This document shows positions 342 through 20,880 of a stretch of 21,595 nt of DNA, piece after piece. A program made the position numbers and the translations under genes. The stretch comes from a virus, in IMG/VR virus record IMGVR_UViG_3300020583_000477, positions 1-21,595 of that record; one strand, given 5' to 3'. Numbering within the stretch: the first letter of the stretch is position 1; every line of letters begins with the position of its first letter. The notes beneath the pieces are model-generated. The model was not told where the DNA came from and made no database searches. It worked only from the letters and a program-made list of their open reading frames with translations.

Positions 342-465
342 TGAGAGCGCGGAGCTTCAGCGGCTAAAGCCGATTTGAGCTGCGCTGCTGTGGCCGGGCT
401 CAAGCCCGGCCCTCCGAAAGCCGTTGCCCGCTAGTGCTGGGGCAACACAAATTGTGACAAACCCG

Positions 466-3267
466 ATGAACAACTTGTCTGATATTTCGATTTTGAACGG
501 CGAGGCGGTTGAGCCGAATGATGGGCGCATTGCGCCGCTGGATGGTTCGGCCGCCTCGGGCGGACTCGCCACAAGCGCTTCGGCTACGCTCGGTGCGGGT
601 GGCTCGCGTGCGGCCGCTGGGCGGGGGCCGCTTGGTGTTGACGGGGCGCCGGCGGCGACTGCGCAGGATGCGCTGGCGAAGCAGGCGCTTGGGCCGAACA
701 ACGAGCGGCTCGAGGATCTGCGGCCCGATCTGGTGAACGCGCTGCGCGAGCTGGTGCTCGAGTATCGCCAGGAGGGAATCGTTGCGCGGCGGCATGAGAT
801 TCGTCGAATTCGCCAGGCGCGGCTTTTCTGGCAGGGCTTGCAGTATGCGTGGTGGAATCCGCAGGACATGACCTGGCACCTGCCGTACGAATCGAAAATT
901 TACGATGACAGCGCCGCGGTCGAGATGCCGCGCTACCAGTTTGTCACGAACCTCTATCAGGCCTTCGGGCTCTCGTTTATTTCGGTGCTCAGCCAGGATG
1001 TGCCGGCGACGCGGTTTTACCCCCAATCCGCGCAATCGATCTCGGACATCACTTCGGCGCGCGCGGCGTCCGAGGTGTGCGACCTCGTTGAGCAGAATAA
1101 TCGCGTGCAGCATTTGCTGACGGGCGTGGCGTTTTATTTGTGGACCGACGGGAAGATCGGCGGCTACGTGCGGTACGTGGCCGACGCGCAGCGGTTCGGT
1201 TCGCACGACGAGCCGGTGATTGAGGAGCATTACGTTCCCCTCGGCGATGACGTGTACGCGTGCCCCGAGTGCGGGGCGGAGCAGAGCGTTTCAAACGAAA
1301 CAGGAGACGGTGAGGCAGGAGGCGCCGACGGCTCGGCTTTGGATCGGGTTTCAGCCGGACCCATCCTTCGCAAAGCCCGCGAAGGATGGGGCACCCGAAA
1401 GAGCCACCCCGAGGCCCCTGGCGCGAATGTGGACGGAGGCGATGGTTATCGCTCGGACGGCGGCATGGAAACCGACAGGCTAGAAGCCTGTCCTACGGGT
1501 GGCCTTCTCCCGCCGGTGATGTGCCGCAACTGCGGGGCTTCGCTGGGGCCGGAGCATTTTCGGCCGGCAGCGCGGGTGGCTGTGCCTCTCATCACCGGCG
1601 TGCGGCGCGTGGCGAATGGGCAGGAAGTGATTTCGGTGGTGGGCGGGCTCGAGCTGAATACGCCGGTATGGGCGAATGAGATGCACGAGTATCCTTACCT
1701 CCAGTGGTCGATGGAGGTACACCGCGCGAAACTGAAGGCGAGCTATCCGCACGCTGCGGACAAGATTCAGATGGGCGGTCCGGAGACTACGGACGAAGTG
1801 TACGCGCGCGCGACGCGCATCGCGATCTCGCAGGGGCTGCCCACGACGCATCCAGGCGATGCGCTCTTCAACCTGATCACGTTTTCGCGGACGTGGATCC
1901 GGCCATGGGCGTTCTACTCGATCGAAGACAAATCGGTACGTGACGCGCTGCTCGCGCTCTTTCCCGAAGGTTGCTACGTCGCGTTTGCCGGCGACACGTA
2001 TTGCGAATCGCGCAACGAATCCATGGACGATCGCTGGCGCGTGATGCATGCGCTGCCGGGCGACGGGCAGAACCGGCCGTCGGTGGGCGATTCGCTGGTG
2101 CAGATTCAGGAGCGCTACAACACGCTCTCCAACATTCAGGCGGAGACGTACGAGTACGGCATCCCGCCGATTTACGCCGATCCGCAGGTGCTCGATTTCG
2201 ACGCGCTCGCGAATCAAACCGCCGAGCCTGCGGCGCACTATCCGGCGCGCGCGCGTCCAGGGCAGCCCCTGGCCGCGGGATTTTTTCAACCGGCGCCCGC
2301 GCAGGTGCCGCCCGACTTGGTGCGGCATCAGCAGGACTTGATGGGTCCGGTCGCGCAATTTTTGACGGGGCTATTTCCCGCGGTGTTCGGCGGCGAGATG
2401 GAATCGCAGAAAACCGCTTCCGGGTACGCCATGGCGCGCGATCAGGCGCTTGGGCGCCTCGGACTCGTGTGGCGGCGGCTCAAGACTTTTTACGCCGATG
2501 TGATGCTGTTGTCAGTGGATTGTTTCCGGAAAAATCGCCCCGAGGACGCGGAGATTCCGATTCTTGGGCCGGGCGGGGAATTTGAGTCGCGCTGGATTCG
2601 GCTGGCCGATTTGAAGGGCAACATTCAGGCGCATCCGGAGAGCGATGAGACGTTCCCGCGGTTGAAATCGCAGCAGCGCGCGGTCGTACAGCAGCTGATG
2701 GCTTCGTCCGATCCGCTGATTCAGCAGGCGCTGGCCGATCCTTCCAACATCGGATTCGTGAAGAGTGTGCTGGGTTTGTCGGACCTCGTTGTGCCGGGAG
2801 AGGATTCGCGGAATAAGCAGTTGCGCGAGATCGATTTGCTTCTGGCGGGCACACTGATTCAGGAAGCACAAGTAGCACAGGCTTCAGCCTGTGGCCTTCC
2901 ATCAGAGCTTGGCGCAACCAAAACCACGGGAGACGGGACAGGTGCGCAACGGAACAACACCGCCGCAGCCTCGGCTACGGCGAGCAGACCGAGTGGCGCA
3001 ATGGAGACCCACAGACTGAAGTCTGTGCTACTGAAGCCTTCCGTGCCGATCGACTTGCTCTTCGATAATCACGTGGTTGAGCTGGAGGAGTGCCGGCGCT
3101 GGGCCAATTCCGACGCGGGGCAGATTGCGCGCGTCGAAAATCCTGCGGGCTTCGCCAATGTGCGGGCGCATGCGGAGGCGCATCTGCGCGCGATTGGTTT
3201 GGCTTACGCCGCCCAAAAGAGTAACTCCGCGACAACGCCACCGACTGCGAACAACAGCCCGTCCTAG
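466..3267 (+). CDS. Phage portal protein (with in-frame repeat insertions)
   Basis: A 933-residue protein read as the dodecameric portal, which forms the DNA channel at the capsid vertex and binds terminase and the tail connector. Support: first large gene of a structural series just before scaffold and capsid genes; a charged N-terminal helix followed by aromatic segments (LFWQGLQYAWWNPQDMTWHL); and a late helix-rich region (about residues 630-690, with TASGYAMARDQALGRLGLVW) typical of portal stem and crown regions. Two CxxC pairs (C266/C269 and C353/C356) would form a zinc ribbon but are separated by about 80 residues of low-complexity sequence containing repeats. A second insertion lies at about residues 803-856. 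ATG at 466 is chosen; GTG at 454 and TTG at 424 are in frame, and none has a clear Shine-Dalgarno. The protein is longer than most podovirus portals, partly because of the insertions. Confidence 0.78.
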   Translation: MNNLSDISILNGEAVEPNDGRIAPLDGSAASGGLATSASATLGAGGSRAAAGRGPLGVDGAPAATAQDALAKQALGPNNERLEDLRPDLVNALRELVLEYRQEGIVARRHEIRRIRQARLFWQGLQYAWWNPQDMTWHLPYESKIYDDSAAVEMPRYQFVTNLYQAFGLSFISVLSQDVPATRFYPQSAQSISDITSARAASEVCDLVEQNNRVQHLLTGVAFYLWTDGKIGGYVRYVADAQRFGSHDEPVIEEHYVPLGDDVYACPECGAEQSVSNETGDGEAGGADGSALDRVSAGPILRKAREGWGTRKSHPEAPGANVDGGDGYRSDGGMETDRLEACPTGGLLPPVMCRNCGASLGPEHFRPAARVAVPLITGVRRVANGQEVISVVGGLELNTPVWANEMHEYPYLQWSMEVHRAKLKASYPHAADKIQMGGPETTDEVYARATRIAISQGLPTTHPGDALFNLITFSRTWIRPWAFYSIEDKSVRDALLALFPEGCYVAFAGDTYCESRNESMDDRWRVMHALPGDGQNRPSVGDSLVQIQERYNTLSNIQAETYEYGIPPIYADPQVLDFDALANQTAEPAAHYPARARPGQPLAAGFFQPAPAQVPPDLVRHQQDLMGPVAQFLTGLFPAVFGGEMESQKTASGYAMARDQALGRLGLVWRRLKTFYADVMLLSVDCFRKNRPEDAEIPILGPGGEFESRWIRLADLKGNIQAHPESDETFPRLKSQQRAVVQQLMASSDPLIQQALADPSNIGFVKSVLGLSDLVVPGEDSRNKQLREIDLLLAGTLIQEAQVAQASACGLPSELGATKTTGDGTGAQRNNTAAASATASRPSGAMETHRLKSVLLKPSVPIDLLFDNHVVELEECRRWANSDAGQIARVENPAGFANVRAHAEAHLRAIGLAYAAQKSNSATTPPTANNSPS
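1360..1390. repeat. Perfect 12-bp hairpin inside portal gene (family F)
   Basis: CCCATCCTTCGC at 1360-1371 is followed by a 7-base loop and its exact complement at 1379-1390. It lies in the coding sequence between the two halves of the portal zinc ribbon and is read through in frame. The style matches dispersed hairpins of acidobacterial genomes (recollection, not searched). Confidence 0.8.
1472..1496. repeat. REP-like unit inside portal gene (family A, single arm)
   Basis: A right-arm copy of family A, with the flanking GGAAACC also seen before the arms at 318 and 10486. It is translated in frame as DRLEACPT just before the second CxxC of the portal. No left arm is visible nearby, so this is either a solo unit or the remnant of a pair. 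Confidence 0.85.
2872..3031. repeat. REP-like inverted repeat pair inside portal gene (family A variant)
   Basis: The left arm at 2872-2894 and right arm at 3008-3031 are family A variants carrying a GTAGCACAG-type outer end instead of GTAGGACAG. They flank about 110 bases of sequence coding for Thr/Ala/Ser/Gly-rich protein. The whole block is read in frame between LLLAGTLIQEAQ and SVPIDLLFDNHVVELEEC, which look like continuous portal sequence without it. Confidence 0.85.
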
Positions 3268-3818: not shown

Positions 3819-3881
3819 TCAACCTTTGGAATGTGCCTGATTCAGGGAATGAACATATATACGCTCAGATGCGATTTCAAC

Positions 3882-3886
3882 AGGAG
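3882..3886 (+). promoter_or_regulatory. Shine-Dalgarno deciding the scaffold start
   Basis: AGGAG lies six bases before the ATG at 3893. This favours that start over the in-frame GTG at 3833, which has no comparable site and would lie almost against the start of the minus-strand gene. Confidence 0.75.
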
Positions 3887-3892
3887 TTACCG

Positions 3893-5311
3893 ATGAGCAG
3901 TGGGACGCGAGTCGATCTGGATTGGGCGGGAACTGAACCGGCTTCGCCGGACAACGGCCAGTTGGGCGGGGCGGGCGCTTCTTCCGCGCCTGCTCCTGGA
4001 AAACCGGCGGCGAAGTATTTGACTGACGAAGAGATTCTAGGAATCGAGCCGTCATCGCCGGAGCAGCGCTCCGGTGCTGTAGCCCACCTCTTTAGAGGCG
4101 GGGAATCGGGTGCGGAGGGTGACGGCGACTCCGCTGCGGGGAACAGCGCGTCGTCTGACGAAACTAAGATCCCCGCGTCTAAAGACCCGGGCTACAGCGG
4201 TCGCGGTGGCCTGACTGACGCCGCGATGCCGGGGTGGATGGCGGCTGCGGCGGCTGATCCGCGGCATTCTGCTGAGGCGTCGGAGCTTTGGCGCGAGCAT
4301 CAGGAGTTTCGCGCGGCGTTTGCTTCGCCGGAAGAGGCGCGCGCGGTGAAGGAGTTGTTGCCGGGCGGGGTGCGCGATGTGCTTTCTTTGCGCGAAGCGA
4401 CGCGATCGGTGGAGCGGATTGATGCGGCGCTTTTTTCGGGTGACGCGCGGGCGCAGGCTGAGGTCGTGGCTGAATTGGCGCGGGCGAATCCGACGGCGTT
4501 TCGATCGTTGTTTGCGGAGGCGGCGAAGGTGGTGGCGGGACTTGGAGGCAAGGAGGCAGGAGGCAGGGAAGCAAGGAGCCTCGACGGGCCGAATCCAAAC
4601 GGAGTGGCCGCCGGTACACAAAATGCAGATGCTCGAAAAGATTCGCGCGGTGATGATGGGCGCTCGCGTGGCGGCGACGATCGCGACGAACACCGGCATC
4701 ACTCTGGCGACGGGCACCCGCCTGGATCCGCGCCTCCGCCTTCGCAAGGCGCCAATGATCCTGCGCCCGGCGATCCGCAGGACATGTCGGCCGGATCGCT
4801 GGTCGCTGCTCCCACCTTCGATCCTGCCGCCTACGCTCAGTTTGAGCGGGCTACGAACGATGCTGTAGCGAGGGACGTGCGCGGGTCGATCCACGAGACT
4901 CTGTCCCGCGTGATGCCGGAGGGCGTGGCGGAAGGCGCGGCGCGGCGAATCGGCGAGGACATCTTCCATGAGGTTCACCGGGCGCTGGCCGCCGATCGCA
5001 CGCTGTCCGAGCAGGTCGCGAGCGTGTTGCGCAGCCGGCGATTTGGCGAAGCGGAACGGCAGCACGTCGCTTCCTTGCTGGCGCGGCGCGCCAAACAGTT
5101 GGTGCCCAGCGTGGCGCGGCGCGTGATCGGCGAATGGACAAGCACCGTGCTGAGCACGGCGCGGTCAAAAGCCGCAAGGCAGGCAACGGCAGTGTCTCGC
5201 GTGGACATCGCCGCTGCGGGCGGATCGCTCGATTCGATGCCGCTGCGTCCTATGGCGCAGCGCGAAGTGAATTACGCCTCGATGAGCGACGAGGAGATTT
5301 TAGGAATGTGA
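3893..5311 (+). CDS. Putative capsid scaffolding protein
   Basis: A 472-residue, highly charged Ala/Arg/Glu-rich protein between portal and major capsid genes, the usual place of the scaffold that guides procapsid assembly. A helical region at about residues 125-220 (ELWREHQEFRAAFASPEEAR, later TAFRSLFAEAAKVVAGLG) is followed by a disordered Gly/Asp/His/Pro linker (about 221-300). A second helical region (about 315-440) contains ARRIGEDIFHEVHRALAADR. The short motif DEEILG occurs near the N-terminus (LTDEEILGIE) and again as the last residues (MSDEEILGM). A 123-bp inverted repeat element is translated in frame after the first motif. No protease catalytic motif was seen. The role rests on position and composition, not on a recognised domain. 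Confidence 0.62.
   Translation: MSSGTRVDLDWAGTEPASPDNGQLGGAGASSAPAPGKPAAKYLTDEEILGIEPSSPEQRSGAVAHLFRGGESGAEGDGDSAAGNSASSDETKIPASKDPGYSGRGGLTDAAMPGWMAAAAADPRHSAEASELWREHQEFRAAFASPEEARAVKELLPGGVRDVLSLREATRSVERIDAALFSGDARAQAEVVAELARANPTAFRSLFAEAAKVVAGLGGKEAGGREARSLDGPNPNGVAAGTQNADARKDSRGDDGRSRGGDDRDEHRHHSGDGHPPGSAPPPSQGANDPAPGDPQDMSAGSLVAAPTFDPAAYAQFERATNDAVARDVRGSIHETLSRVMPEGVAEGAARRIGEDIFHEVHRALAADRTLSEQVASVLRSRRFGEAERQHVASLLARRAKQLVPSVARRVIGEWTSTVLSTARSKAARQATAVSRVDIAAAGGSLDSMPLRPMAQREVNYASMSDEEILGM
4058..4074. repeat. Short hairpin in scaffold gene
   Basis: CCGGAGC-AGC-GCTCCGG is a perfect 7-bp palindrome with a three-base loop. It abuts the larger inverted repeat element at 4076-4198 and is translated within the scaffold. 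Confidence 0.7.
4076..4198. repeat. Inverted repeat element inside scaffold gene (family G)
   Basis: The left arm at 4076-4107 (GCTGTAGCCCACCTCTTTAG and on) and the right arm at 4168-4198 (ending AAAGACCCGGGCTACAGC) are imperfect reverse complements enclosing about 60 bases. The 123-bp block is exactly 41 codons, so its insertion keeps the frame. Its translation is low-complexity Gly/Ser/Asp/Glu. Confidence 0.82.
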
Positions 5312-5316
5312 TGAAA

Positions 5317-5460
5317 CAGTGGCTAGTGGCTAGCGAAAAACGAGACCGACTTGGTTCACGCGACTTCCTGAACGGTTTGGTCGGACCGAGTGCTAGTCGA
5401 ACAGCCTGAAATAACGATTTACGCCTTGCTAGCCACTAGTCACTCGCCACTAGCCACTTC
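5317..5460. repeat. Inverted repeat pair (family B) between scaffold and capsid genes
   Basis: The left arm at 5317-5338 (GTGGCTAGTGGCTAGCGAAA) and right arm at 5428-5460 (starting GCTAGCCACTAGTCACTCG) are made of reiterated GTGGCTAG / CTAGCCAC units facing each other. The family recurs at 15295-15394 and 21391-21525. The remaining gap to the capsid gene (5461-5534) holds no other feature except its ribosome binding site. Confidence 0.85.
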
Positions 5461-5534
5461 TTTCCGGCCCGCAACACCATCCAAGTTCATACCTGCTACC
5501 TGCATTCATACCTTCATAACGACGAGGAGCCATC

Positions 5535-6806
5535 ATGGCACAACAAACCAACGCGCAGACAATCGCGTTGCAACTGGAGAAGGTGCGCGACAAAGTGCCC
5601 CTGCTCTACGAGCGCGACGACGTTCTGCTCAGCATGATTCAGCAACGCGGTGACGTGGAAAAGGTCAGCTCGCGCAACATGCGGCTGCCCCTGCAACTCA
5701 TTCCCGGCGGCAAGGCCGGCAGCTACAGCGCGGACGGCGGCGACCTGGGCCTCGGCTCGGGGACCACGTACGACGTGGCGCAAGTCTCGCCGATGTTCTT
5801 CCGCTTCGCCGTGCAAATCACCAAGCTCGTGGAGTACGCGTCCAACGCGCGCGAGAAGGCGATCGAAAACGCGGTGAAGCGCGAAATCGCCAGCGGCATG
5901 AAGCAGTTCCGCTCGTTCCTCGACAAAGTGATCCAGACCGCCGGCAACGGCGTGCTGGGCACGATCAGCGCGATCGCCGGGTCGACATTCACGATGGCCG
6001 TGCCCACGGGCGCGGCGCTCGTCTACGTGGGGCAGACGATCCAGATCTACGATCCCACACTCACCACCAACCGCAACGTCGCGGCCGGAGTGGTCACCAG
6101 CGTGACCGCGGCCGATCCCATTTCTTCGACGCAAACCATCACGGTGGACAACGTGCCCACCGGCACGTCCGTCAACGACGTGATCGTCCATGACGGCTTG
6201 ACCGGCTCATCGCCCGTATCTCTCTTTGGCATCAAGTATCACCAAAACAACGCGACCACTGGAACCTGGCTCAACCTCAATCGCGCGACGTATCCGCAGC
6301 AACTGCAAACGCCGCGCGTCAACGCGGGCAATGCCGCGCTCGTGCCCGGCCACGTGCGCCTGGCGATCAATAAAGTGCGCAAAGCCCTGGGCATCAACCA
6401 TCTCGGCAAACTCATCGCCTACACCAGCGTCGAGCAGGAACACGCCTGGGAAAATCTTGGCATCACCGTTTCCCAGATCGTCAAGGAAGGCCCTGGCGGG
6501 CGCGCCACCGACCTTGACATGCTCTTCTCCGGGAAGAAGACCATGTCCGGGATTCCCATCAAGAGTTCGGTGAACGCCGATCAGACGCGCATCGACTTCC
6601 TCGACTTGTCGCACTGGGGCCGAGCCGTGATGAAGGACATCGACTTCTTCGAGGTCGGCGGACAGACCGTGTTCCCGATATATGGCGCGAGCGGCGGGAT
6701 TTCGGCTTCGTTCATCTTCTACTTCGACACCGGCTTCCAGGTGTGGAACGACTCGCCGCGCAGCGGCAGCTTCATCGATACGCTGGCGAGGCCATCCGGC
6801 TACTAG
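5535..6806 (+). CDS. Major capsid protein (HK97-fold type)
   Basis: A 423-residue protein read as the main capsid subunit. The N-terminal region resembles the arm and E-loop of HK97-fold coats, with a helical spine-like segment (KAIENAVKREIASGMKQFRS, about residues 113-132). A beta-rich segment at about 140-220 (GTISAIAGSTFTMAVPTGAA onwards) looks like an inserted domain. The C-terminal half (VPGHVRLAINKVRKALG, later FPIYGASGGISASFIFYFDT) fits the P- and A-domains. A GAGGAG site lies five bases before the ATG, consistent with high expression. It follows the scaffold-like gene, as expected. Length is ordinary for the family and no break is visible. The exact coat subfamily cannot be fixed by eye. 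Confidence 0.82.
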   Translation: MAQQTNAQTIALQLEKVRDKVPLLYERDDVLLSMIQQRGDVEKVSSRNMRLPLQLIPGGKAGSYSADGGDLGLGSGTTYDVAQVSPMFFRFAVQITKLVEYASNAREKAIENAVKREIASGMKQFRSFLDKVIQTAGNGVLGTISAIAGSTFTMAVPTGAALVYVGQTIQIYDPTLTTNRNVAAGVVTSVTAADPISSTQTITVDNVPTGTSVNDVIVHDGLTGSSPVSLFGIKYHQNNATTGTWLNLNRATYPQQLQTPRVNAGNAALVPGHVRLAINKVRKALGINHLGKLIAYTSVEQEHAWENLGITVSQIVKEGPGGRATDLDMLFSGKKTMSGIPIKSSVNADQTRIDFLDLSHWGRAVMKDIDFFEVGGQTVFPIYGASGGISASFIFYFDTGFQVWNDSPRSGSFIDTLARPSGY

Positions 6807-6847
6807 AAATCGGAGCCGCTGCGGCACAGAGAAAAGCAAAACCTTGG

Positions 6848-6970
6848 AACCACAGATGCACACAGATTCACACTGATAAAATACAGATTCAGATGCAAGA
6901 AGAAGGTGCTTCAAGTCAAAGCCTCTCCGCATATTCATCATCAGTGTTCATCTGTGTGCATCTGTGGTTT
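6848..6970. repeat. Inverted repeat pair (family C) between capsid and decoration genes
   Basis: The left arm at 6848-6877 (AACCACAGATGCACACAGAT and on) and right arm at 6940-6970 (ending CATCTGTGGTTT) are near reverse complements built from CACAGAT/ATCTGTG units. The family recurs at 9560-9711. The arms nearly fill the 190-base gap and could form a long stem between the capsid stop and the next start. Confidence 0.85.
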
Positions 6971-6996
6971 CGTATTGAATTTCTTAGGAGAACAAC

Positions 6997-7383
6997 ATGT
7001 CCGTCACACTTACGTTGACTGATGTCGATCCCGGCGGGACGCAGGTGTATGCGTTCGGCACCGTGGCGCTTTCGGGGAACTATCCGACCGGGGGCGACAC
7101 CGTGGACTGGACGCAGCTCGTGAAGCAGATCGCGGCGCGCGGCCAGATCATCGATTCCAGCATGAACGATCCCGCGTTCGGGCCAGTGCAGGCGAACTTC
7201 ACCGTGCAGGGCGGCACGCCAAACCAGTACCAGATGCAGCAAGGCGCCGCCGCGAATAACTGGAAGATGCGCGGCTACACGACGGGCTCGGCCGGCGCCG
7301 AATTCACCGGCAACGCCGCGTATCCGTCGTCGGCGACCGGCGACATCATCACGTTTTCAGCCCAGTTTCGGAAACTGACGTGA
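6997..7383 (+). CDS. Small virion structural protein, decoration- or head-fibre-like
   Basis: A 128-residue soluble protein rich in Thr, Gly, Ala and Gln and almost devoid of Cys. It begins MSVTLTLTDVDPGGTQVYAF, reads as alternating beta strands throughout and ends TFSAQFRKLT. AGGAG lies six bases before the ATG. Its place directly after the major capsid gene and its small beta-rich character suggest a capsid decoration or head-completion protein. I do not recognise a specific family, so the role is inferred from position only. It ends just before a REP-like repeat pair. Confidence 0.6.
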   Translation: MSVTLTLTDVDPGGTQVYAFGTVALSGNYPTGGDTVDWTQLVKQIAARGQIIDSSMNDPAFGPVQANFTVQGGTPNQYQMQQGAAANNWKMRGYTTGSAGAEFTGNAAYPSSATGDIITFSAQFRKLT

Positions 7384-7388
7384 CGAGA

Positions 7389-7462
7389 GTAGGACAGGCT
7401 TCCAGCCTGTCGGGGTGTGACCTTGCAAGGACTAAACCCGACAGGCTAGAAGCCTGTCCTAC
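7389..7462. repeat. REP-like inverted repeat pair (family A)
   Basis: The left arm at 7389-7413 and right arm at 7438-7462 are almost exact reverse complements, with only 24 bases between them. It is the cleanest pair of this family in the window and begins five bases after the stop codon of the decoration-like gene. Confidence 0.88.
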
Positions 7463-18265: not shown

Positions 18266-18404
18266 GACTGGGGACGACGCCTGCAACACGGTCGCGCGAG
18301 ATTTTGTTATGGGATATTGATGTCAGGAGCGTGGCGTGTTAGAGAGAACAGGTCAATTAGGGCGTGGCGATGGACGCTCATTTCATGCCCCAAAGGACTA
18401 TAAA

Positions 18405-19460
18405 ATGATCCGCTCTCTCGAAATATCCAATTTCCGTGGGTTCAAGCAAGTCGCTCTTTCTAACCTACCGCGATTCAACGTTCTAATAGGCGAAAGCGGG
18501 AGTGGTAAGACTGCCTTTCTCGAAGCGCTCTGGATTCAATGCGGAATTAGTCCGGAGATATATTTCCGAATGCGTTTTTTTCGCGGAATGGCCGAGCAGC
18601 AAGTCCAACTGGGCGGCGATAGGTTGAGCTACGAAGCGTTTTTCAATGACCTTTTCTACGATCCCTCGCTCGATATCGGAGCACTGATTCAAATTATCGA
18701 TTCTGAGCTCGGATCGCGACACCTAAATATTGCGTACGGCACCCCCGCACAAGTGACCATGAATGCTGTACAAATGCAACCGGGTGCCAACCCAGTTGCA
18801 CGGCCGCTCCATTTTCGTTGGAAGGTTGGGGATACAGAGTACGATGTTCCGCTAAGAATCGCGAATAATCAGATGGTTGTTGAGAACCCCCCGCCCCAAT
18901 ATCCCGGTGTTTACTTTGCATCGTCATTCGTGTCGAGTGCACGAGAAACTGCTGAACGCCTTTCAATACTGAGTATACGAGGCGAAAAAGAGAAAATAGC
19001 GGAGACCATCAAGAAGATTTATCGGAACATTGTTGACATAAGTTCTGAGAGTGTTTCAGGTCAACAACAAATATGGGCCTCGGTGAAGGGAGTAAAGCGC
19101 AAGATACCGCTTGCGGTGGTGTCTTCCGGTATTAACAAGTTTGCGAGTCTATTGCTGGGAATTTGCCTCAATCCGGGCGGCGCTTTGCTAGTGGATGAGA
19201 TCGACAATGGCTTTTATTTTCTTGACTACGAAAGTATCTTCGGAACTTTGGTGGAGTTCTGTGACACGTATGACGTCCAGCTCTTCGCCGCGACGCACAA
19301 TTGGGAATTTCTCAAGGCCGTTGCCAAAGTCATGGAATCGCGACTGCGAGATCTTTCCATGCTTAAAACACAATTTCAGGATGGGGAATGTACGGTCCGC
19401 CAGATCGAGGGTGTCTCTTCTGTGGCGGCGATTGAAGAGGAAATCGACATCCGCAAATAA
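18405..19460 (+). CDS. ABC-type AAA ATPase (OLD/PARIS AriA-like), probable defence ATPase
   Basis: A 351-residue ATPase of the SMC/Rad50/OLD-like class. It opens with IRSLEISNFRGFKQVAL, the typical N-terminus of that class. Walker A is GESGSGKT (29-36), a signature-like SSG lies at 240-242, Walker B is LLVDE (261-265) and the H-loop is ATH with His298. There is no long coiled coil; residues 50-235 hold a compact insertion. It is shorter than typical OLD nucleases because the TOPRIM domain is not fused but encoded by the next gene, whose ATG overlaps this stop by one base. AAAGGA seven bases upstream supports this start over the in-frame GTG at 18336. Codon use is less GC-biased than in the phage genes around it. 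ATP-driven sensing or activation of the partner is inferred from family behaviour. Confidence 0.82.
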   Translation: MIRSLEISNFRGFKQVALSNLPRFNVLIGESGSGKTAFLEALWIQCGISPEIYFRMRFFRGMAEQQVQLGGDRLSYEAFFNDLFYDPSLDIGALIQIIDSELGSRHLNIAYGTPAQVTMNAVQMQPGANPVARPLHFRWKVGDTEYDVPLRIANNQMVVENPPPQYPGVYFASSFVSSARETAERLSILSIRGEKEKIAETIKKIYRNIVDISSESVSGQQQIWASVKGVKRKIPLAVVSSGINKFASLLLGICLNPGGALLVDEIDNGFYFLDYESIFGTLVEFCDTYDVQLFAATHNWEFLKAVAKVMESRLRDLSMLKTQFQDGECTVRQIEGVSSVAAIEEEIDIRK

Positions 19461-20119
19461 TGGCACAGCTCATCGATTCCCCGTATCAGTTGATCTGCGA
19501 GGGAAAAGCGGATGAGGTGTTCTTTTCTCGCCTGCTGAAGGCGAGCGGCAGAAATGTAAACGTCGCATGCCCCAAAAAAGAAGACGGCGGTGGGGCCGGG
19601 AAGTCCGGAATGTTCAACCGCCTAATTGGTCTTCAGGCGGAGTTCGGCAGAATTAGTCGGGTCGTATTGGCGATTGATTCTGATGACGATCCGGCGCAAG
19701 CCCTTGAAGATGCGTGCGGGGAATTTAGAAAGGCCAACGCAGCCAATGCTGCCAAGGCATACCCTGTTCCAACCGGCGCAGGTGTTATGACTCCAGGTTC
19801 TCCGACAACTGCTGTAGTGCTGGTGCCTGGTGTCGGCTTGAAAGGGTGCCTCGATGCTCTTCTCCTTCCCAGTTTTGAGCAACAATATTCAGGAGCCAAG
19901 GTTGACTGTGTAAATGCTTTCTGCGACTGCGTCCGAGATCCGCTCCGAGGAGTAACGCGGGATTCAAAGGTGCGATTGCGGGCCTTGATTGCGGCTGCGT
20001 GGCCAAAGAACCCGGGTATCAGCTTATCGTTCTTATTGGAAGAAAAGAACTGCCCAATAGACCTTGCGCACGCTTCTTTTAATCCAATACGCAACCTACT
20101 GCTTGGGCTATTCCCGTAG
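19460..20119 (+). CDS. TOPRIM-domain effector candidate (DUF3226-like), partner of the ATPase
   Basis: A 219-residue protein with the TOPRIM pattern: strand-turn LICEGKADEVFFSRLL with Glu14, then VVLAIDSDDDPAQAL with Asp73, Asp75 and Asp77, the acidic set that binds metal in TOPRIM nucleases and primases. The first 80 residues resemble DUF3226; the later PGVGLKGCLDALLLPSF segment also fits that family. It is translationally coupled to the upstream ATPase gene (ATG overlaps TAA). Two-gene ATPase plus TOPRIM modules occur in PARIS (AriA/AriB) and, as fusions, in OLD and Gabija GajA, where TOPRIM cleaves nucleic acid once the ATPase responds to infection. By analogy this is the likely effector; its substrate cannot be told from sequence. 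Confidence 0.72.
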   Translation: MAQLIDSPYQLICEGKADEVFFSRLLKASGRNVNVACPKKEDGGGAGKSGMFNRLIGLQAEFGRISRVVLAIDSDDDPAQALEDACGEFRKANAANAAKAYPVPTGAGVMTPGSPTTAVVLVPGVGLKGCLDALLLPSFEQQYSGAKVDCVNAFCDCVRDPLRGVTRDSKVRLRALIAAAWPKNPGISLSFLLEEKNCPIDLAHASFNPIRNLLLGLFP

Positions 20120-20217: not shown

Positions 20218-20733
20218 ATGCTGAAAATCGGCCAACTCGCCCAAATCAAGAGCGAATCGCCCTACGTCTACGAAGCGCTGACGCAGCTCGTCAACGCCGT
20301 GAACGCGGTGGGGCGGGGAACCGGCGTCGATCCCTCCGGCTCGATCTCCGCGCCCACATCGATCGGCGGCCTCAGCGTCACCGCCGCTGACGGCATTTTC
20401 GACATCGCCATCACCGACAACTCCTCGGTGAATCGCGGCGTGTTCTATTTCGCGGAGTCGGACACGACGCCCGCGTTCCACCAGCCCTACGTGCACTTTC
20501 TCGGCAGCTCACGCAACTATCGCATCGCACTCGGCAATCAGACGCTCTACTGGCGCGCCTACTCGCAGTACCTCGGCTCGGAAACGTCCCAGCCGGTCAC
20601 GTTCGGCAATCCTCCCACCGCCGTCACCGGAGGCGGAACCGCCAGCGGCCCCGCGCTGCAACCCTCCAGCGGCAGCGGCACCGCCGCGGGCAACGAAGGC
20701 GGCTCCGGCTTCGGCCAAAAACCGCGCAGGTAG
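20218..20733 (+). CDS. Small fibre- or tail-associated protein
   Basis: A 171-residue protein. A short N-terminal helix (YVYEALTQLVNAVNAVG, about residues 19-35) is followed by a beta-sandwich-like body (GLSVTAADGIFDIAITDN to LYWRAYSQYLGSETSQPVTF, about 50-128). The tail is disordered, Gly/Ser/Ala-rich, and ends FGQKPRR. Helix plus FN3-like domain plus flexible tail suits a minor tail or fibre component. The GC-rich codon style returns here after the ATPase-TOPRIM block. No Shine-Dalgarno is seen. The TAG stop (20731-20733) is part of the REP-like repeat that follows, so the gene may originally have ended differently. Confidence 0.55.
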   Translation: MLKIGQLAQIKSESPYVYEALTQLVNAVNAVGRGTGVDPSGSISAPTSIGGLSVTAADGIFDIAITDNSSVNRGVFYFAESDTTPAFHQPYVHFLGSSRNYRIALGNQTLYWRAYSQYLGSETSQPVTFGNPPTAVTGGGTASGPALQPSSGSGTAAGNEGGSGFGQKPRR

Positions 20734-20880
20734 GACAGGCTTCCAGCCTGTCGCCTTTGCGCGCACAGCCCAGCATGCCCCGTGCGCGTGAGCCAGCCGT
20801 TCTTGCACGAGCTACCCCTGGATTTTGGATTTTTGCCGCCACTGAAACTGCAACCCCGACAGGCTACAAGCCTGTCCTAC
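20730..20880. repeat. REP-like inverted repeat pair (family A) overlapping a stop codon
   Basis: The left arm at 20730-20753 and right arm at 20856-20880 face each other over about 100 bases. The left arm provides the TAG of the preceding gene, and the right arm ends three bases before the ATG of the next one. The pair therefore fills the whole gap and leaves no room for an ordinary ribosome binding site outside the repeat. Confidence 0.88.

Follow-up and report, generated by a model that had tools for sequence, protein, structure and literature searches.

Repeat-derived segments read in frame between the two cysteine pairs of a likely phage portal protein family

How does palindromic repeat DNA come to lie inside a virion gene, in the middle of a putative zinc site, without closing the reading frame? 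This question is raised by a virus record of 21,595 bases, here called the window and analysed over its whole length. A portal-like frame in it carries two CxxC pairs that are parted by repeat-rich DNA. A first-pass annotation had described a 12-bp hairpin and a REP between these pairs; both are indeed present, and the frame is intact over its full length. It had also placed the two CxxC pairs correctly but was one off in numbering the residues, which are 267/270 and 354/357 when counted from base 463. The features concerned are the following.

463-3267, plus strand: portal-like protein, 934 aa counted from base 463, which carries the insert
1261-1272, plus strand: first CxxC pair, CPEC, residues 267-270; C267 and C270 are nearly invariant in the family
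1273-1521, plus strand: hypervariable, repeat-derived loop of the putative zinc ribbon, 83 codons, stop-free
1356-1397, no strand assigned: hairpin element with the stem CCCATCCTTCGC and relatives in host DNA
1474-1496, minus strand: GTAG-tagged REP, read as DRLEACPT, from the REP scan
1522-1533, plus strand: second CxxC pair, CRNC, residues 354-357; C354 and C357 are nearly invariant in the family

The hairpin is a perfect 12-bp inverted repeat (arms 1360-1371 and 1379-1390, spacer 7 nt) and has no GTAG tag. A related sequence stands in the same frame in locus L099, three palindromes of its type occur in host genome G006, and a diverged relative is repeated adjoining a RAYT gene in L208. The REP belongs to the GTAG class, for which we required an imperfect palindrome of 20-40 bp with a GTAG tag at its foot. 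Within the window, the 17-bp core of this REP, ACAGGCTNNAAGCCTGT, is matched exactly seven times, and a 21-bp version with up to three mismatches eight times, against none expected from shuffles. The segment is repeat-derived and in frame, as had been proposed.

The frame at 463-3267 is likely a portal gene, on the basis of profile and fold matches and of its position before a major head protein, which is matched two genes downstream. At the stricter limits, neither Pfam nor PHROG gave a match for the window protein, and among 15 family members one matched P22_portal (E 0.005) and four matched phrog_332 (best E 4e-4). A fold search of BFVD, with a model built from 80 sequences, found a predicted portal at E 4e-4 and a predicted podovirus connector at E 1.2e-3; three of the 194 matches reached E <=0.001, one of them named portal and the rest unnamed or uncharacterised. 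The mean pLDDT of the AlphaFold models (42.6 with 15 sequences, 56.4 with 80) is too low for the overall fold. No solved structure matched the model significantly, the best in the PDB being the P22 portal at E 0.44. Searched with a profile, the PDB sequences yielded no portal and, near the loop positions, mostly zinc-finger repeat proteins, which were taken as composition matches. The likeness to P22-type/podovirus portals lies in the weak profile and fold matches and in the same gene order of portal, scaffold position and major head protein; the gene directly after the portal (3833-5311) is a scaffold by position only. However, the two matched solved portals have 541 and 548 residues, compared with 934 for the window protein. 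Elsewhere in the window, at 18336-20119, an ATPase resembling AbiL/PDC-M38A (PADLOC E 6e-40) precedes a DUF3226 protein that is similar to PDC-M38B; judged by these resemblances, the two are likely a phage-borne defence pair.

Is the separation of the cysteine pairs peculiar to this phage? A genome scan yielded 28 portal loci, all in records titled Acidobacteria, Terriglobia, Acidiferrum/Acidiferrales or Acidipila, and of the 155 loci found among viral contigs the best 80 were used. Together with the window, the 108 loci make a set of 109 sequences. Of these, 102 are open through the loop, four have a frame change or stop (inside the loop in L023, L084 and L099, outside it in L035) and three are truncated. 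Both pairs lie in one open frame in 101 of the 109, and among the 105 sequences with both anchors and cysteine pairs the same 101 keep one open frame. These 101 of the 102 open sequences form the loop set. The one left out, L033, has a portal homologue at 4806-7223 that lost both cysteine pairs, and therefore the zinc ribbon may be dispensable.

The loop length among the 101 sequences ranges from 17 to 122 residues (83 distinct loops, median 61), the shortest being 17 aa in L031 and L036 and 21 aa in L105. The distance from the second pair to an ELNT-type motif is nearly fixed, at 39-42 in 93 of 99 rows; the other six rows, and three of those at 39, had the wrong cysteine pair, and loops were later re-derived. 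To judge from these sequences, the loop is the only length-variable part around the cysteine pairs, and it stands at one site shared throughout the family. The first-pass statement that the two pairs are normally close together therefore applies to only a few homologues, and what had been taken for an oddity of one phage is the rule across the family; a portal with an unusual insert was rejected as a description of the locus. An equally long and conserved segment in homologues free of repeats had been named as evidence against a repeat-coded loop. Such length is found, but not the conservation: the segments in homologues vary, and many of them are made of other repeats. The insert is real, but it is a habit of a family of phages of soil bacteria and not a peculiarity of the window phage. 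Both cysteine pairs are conserved in this family, and matches to Zn_Ribbon profiles are weak only; the pairs presumably form one ribbon, with zinc as the putative ligand.

An open frame in 101 of 105 sequences also bears on whether the insert is translated at all. The strong hairpin could suggest that the insert is removed from the RNA or bypassed by the ribosome, but bypass would not need an open frame. REPs are never found in the phase that contains a stop, which is itself a consequence of the open frame, and the window has no Rfam match at gathering scores, by which an RNA element was rejected. We regard an untranslated insert as extremely unlikely.

The composition of the loops was compared with that of core segments and shuffled sequences. 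Among the 83 distinct loops, which are not phylogenetically independent in any of these statistics, 30 contain palindromes with arms of at least 8; core segments gave 4 and 2 of 83, and 100 shuffles averaged 4.1, with a maximum of 9. GTAG-REPs are present in 27 loops and in 0 of 83 segments in each of two core controls (loop shuffles: mean 0.4, largest 2 in 50). A sample of 1.17 Mb from eight host genomes was matched by 43 of the 83 loops, but only by 3 and 4 core segments, 1 shuffled and 2 reversed sequences of 83 each. This sample held one prophage-like contig, L175, which was excluded from the tests on RAYT neighbourhoods and on own hosts. When nine loops were compared host by host, G006 yielded most matches; the own host sample was matched by 4 of 8 loops versus 15 of 56 other loop-host cells (p = 0.14). 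The remaining 40 of 83 loops gave no match to the sampled host DNA, and hence part of the loop DNA is not demonstrably repeat-derived. In the 43 of 83 portals that fit the anchor patterns, the share of bases that match host DNA is 15.4% in the N-terminal region, 16.4% in the loop and 13.0% in the C-terminal variable region, but 0.6-2.0% in the core.

Several kinds of repeat are involved. REPs in plus-then-minus order (REPIN) occur in 7 of the 83 loops, in two of which, L064 and L066, a single perfect palindrome was scored once per strand, and also at the C-terminus of the window portal. Complete inverted REP pairs are found, for example, in the loops of L012, L009, L042 and L052. Other families, recognised by eye, are palindromes of the form GATCC..GGATGACA and tandems of CACGAGTCACCAGTC. 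The portal loop of L041 contains about eleven tandem GLVAQ copies; their 15-bp unit starts with GTAG, and they may be the decayed ends of REPs.

The explanation that we favour, with a probability of roughly 0.7, is that a disordered loop without sequence constraint, pinned by the zinc ribbon, has repeatedly been entered by repeats of host and phage, which are translated in the portal. The sources would be short repeats that are dispersed in acidobacterial host and phage DNA, namely GTAG-REPs, often as REPINs, and other palindromic or tandem families. RAYT transposases may move the GTAG elements into the loop, which would then be translated as a portal segment. In-frame insertions would be kept and out-of-frame insertions lost. 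The zinc ribbon probably pins the ends of the disordered loop, and a loop that is unconstrained and pinned in this way would tolerate insertions as long as the frame stays open.

Relaxed constraint in the loop is seen in four close pairs with equal loops, where pN/pS is 1.14 in the loop and 0.019 in the core; the loop value rests on 7.5 synonymous and 23.5 non-synonymous differences, about 31 in all. Comparison of the loops revealed no conserved motif. L048 and L049 differ by one clean block of 114 nt, that is 38 codons. AlphaFold gives a pLDDT of about 90 around both cysteine pairs and of 33-40 over most of the loop, which agrees with the picture of a segment modelled at low confidence between two confidently modelled, putative zinc-knuckle strands. 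A window loop that projects from the putative zinc site is plausible. Such a loop would be disordered and, as part of the portal, would be incorporated into virions. Tolerance of the loop for inserts is well supported.

The low core pN/pS also speaks against decay or an assembly artefact. Broken prophages or misassembled repeats might be suspected, as the records are MAGs or viral contigs and in 4 of 109 sequences the frame shifts or is closed by a stop close to the loop, but the same pattern recurs across many records. We consider this very improbable, although slightly less so than an untranslated insert.

The codon phase of the REPs has to be weighed here as well. All 32 forward GTAG-REPs in portals are in one phase, reading GTA-Gxx (Val-Ala/Gly), a count in which ancestry is partly shared and some N-terminal REPs may precede the true start. 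Phase 1 is open in 23 of the 32, 13 of which remain open together with their flanks, and phase 2 is closed because of the TAG within the GTAG tag. Reverse REPs in portals use all three phases. Host genes provided four sense cases only (one in phase 0, three in phase 1), and all phage ORFs of at least 300 codons, many of which may be spurious, gave 71 in phase 0 versus 12 in phase 1. The use of a single phase, although a second one is readable in most cases, might indicate a functional loop, for instance in a surface or binding role, that is diversified by selection with repeats as raw material. The long loops of nearly all homologues would fit this too. However, a pN/pS near 1 without a conserved motif, the existence of 17-aa loops and the homologue in L033 without cysteine pairs argue against it, and we think it unlikely. 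An unconstrained loop entered by mobile repeats thus stays our preferred reading.

REPs in the window are not confined to this loop. The first-pass annotation had missed that similar inserts stand close to the C-terminus of the portal and in the gene after it. Further copies and pairs are located as follows.

264-341, no strand assigned: intergenic REP pair just before the portal gene (264-286 by scan, second copy 312-341 by repeat search)
2872-2893, plus strand: GTAG REP in the C-terminal variable region of the portal, left member of an inverted pair (REP scan)
3010-3031, minus strand: GTAG REP, right member of the pair with 2872-2893, in REPIN order (REP scan)
4075-4205, plus strand: in-frame inverted REP pair in the gene after the portal, read as AVAHLFRGGE...SKDPGYSG (matches 4075-4104 and 4163-4205)
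7389-7462, no strand assigned: intergenic pair of REPs from the family of the loop REP (repeat search and scan)
20730-20880, no strand assigned: further REP pair of the loop REP family (20730-20752 and 20858-20880, scan)

The peptide pattern LFRGG...DPGYS at 4075-4205 recurs in the loops of the L009 and L039 portals. Adjoining the pair just before the portal is a small transglycosylase-associated (PF04226) membrane protein at 1-252 on the minus strand.

By which route could such elements enter? Matches to Y1_Tnp over the cut-off were found in 13 of 16 host genomes. With NF047646 (cut-off 80) the RAYT of L215 scored 94.9 bits and that of L209 71.4 bits, both being over the Y1_Tnp cut-off. In L215, the REPs on either side of the RAYT come from the two families that are paired in the loop of L012, a locus of the same genome, G011. 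The RAYT of L209 is flanked by two REPs that match the pair at the C-terminus of the window portal, including one of the 2872-2893 type. Of the 83 loops, 40 match the neighbourhoods of 56 RAYTs, compared with 1 of 83 core segments and a mean of 20.5 (largest 28, 20 draws) for size-matched host fragments. RAYTs were also found upstream of the portal within the loci of four relatives of the window phage; 2.5 kb upstream are present in 71 of the 101 loci.

L009, 3430-4119, minus strand: RAYT upstream of the portal
L010, 412-1065, minus strand: RAYT upstream of the portal
L037, 1170-1817, minus strand: RAYT upstream of the portal
L039, 1410-2165, minus strand: RAYT upstream of the portal

The RAYT of L010 lies among 18 REPs in 12.6 kb, yet the REP scan found no GTAG-REP in the portal loop of this locus. 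In L009, L037 and L039, the 400 bases around the RAYT are free of REPs of the type scanned for. The RAYT of L010/L209 adjoins an ORF that, by eye, is terminase-like.

The REP GTAGSACAGGCTTCAGCCTGTS is abundant in some host genomes: it has 419 matches in G006, 168 in G009, 138 in G005, 19 in G001 and 13 in G002, but 0-3 in the other 11 and none in the reversed control. G006, G009, G005 and G001 are the genomes of L026, L009, L019 and L010, whose portals are 76-77% identical to the window portal. The density of GTAG-REPs is about four times higher in the phage loci (L009-L116 and the window, 2.84 per 10 kb) than in the host samples (L117-L196, 0.68 per 10 kb). RAYTs are the most likely movers of the GTAG elements, both those in the host chromosome and those that some phages carry. 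Transposition as the route by which repeats would enter the loop is moderately supported.

Instead of RAYT transposition, loops could have grown as short repeats recombined locally or slipped during replication. The tandem 15-bp units of L041 and tandem units of the CACGAGTCACCAGT kind are suggestive of this, and the L049 insertion has the short direct repeat CAGAATGACA at its ends, a sign that loops can also gain material by recombination or slippage. As the general explanation it is possible, but the odds are against it: the rate at which loops match RAYT neighbourhoods is about double that of random host fragments, and the complete inverted REP pairs named above also speak against it. Translated insertions of mobile repeats into a tolerant loop remain the account that we prefer.

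Repeats that are read as protein have precedents. Di Nocera et al. (2013, PMC3733652) describe intragenic GTAG/CGTC REPs, with GTAG palindromes single, paired or clustered within open frames; pairs and groups encode 20-30 residues and clusters 43-82. As far as described there, these REPs lie in cellular genes, many of them for DNA synthesis or repair, and mostly at differing sites, whereas here a phage structural protein is concerned and one site is re-used family-wide. The same source gives an account of Rickettsia palindromic elements (RPE), palindromic repeats inserted in frame and translated. The present elements resemble RPE, by description only, in being in-frame translated palindromes, but they comprise several unrelated families and are RAYT-associated. 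REPIN/RAYT systems, with inverted REP pairs, REPs adjoining RAYT genes and high copy number, are extragenic in the account of PMC3116915 (Within-Genome Evolution of REPINs), unlike the elements reported here, which lie in the open frame of a virion gene and whose RAYTs are in some cases phage-borne. In the open-licence literature we found nothing on REPs in portal genes or on in-frame palindromes in phage genes. Since in-frame REPs are already known in cellular genes, the portal finding extends a known phenomenon; the recurrent landing site of REPs in a phage virion protein is new.

The 83 distinct loops at one fixed site, within a conserved flanking frame, are a large natural series of mobile repeats turned coding, and this series includes close pairs that differ by a single insertion. 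It opens testable questions on how proteins absorb selfish DNA and on the zinc ribbon as a clamp that may shield the fold from insertions. Furthermore, it links RAYT/REPIN biology to phages. More speculatively, and we hold this to be rather doubtful, phage-borne RAYTs and REPINs might constitute a mobile system of phage and host in which the elements are held to a phase that can be translated, and virion genes would then be refuges where such repeats survive as parts of proteins and move from host to host.
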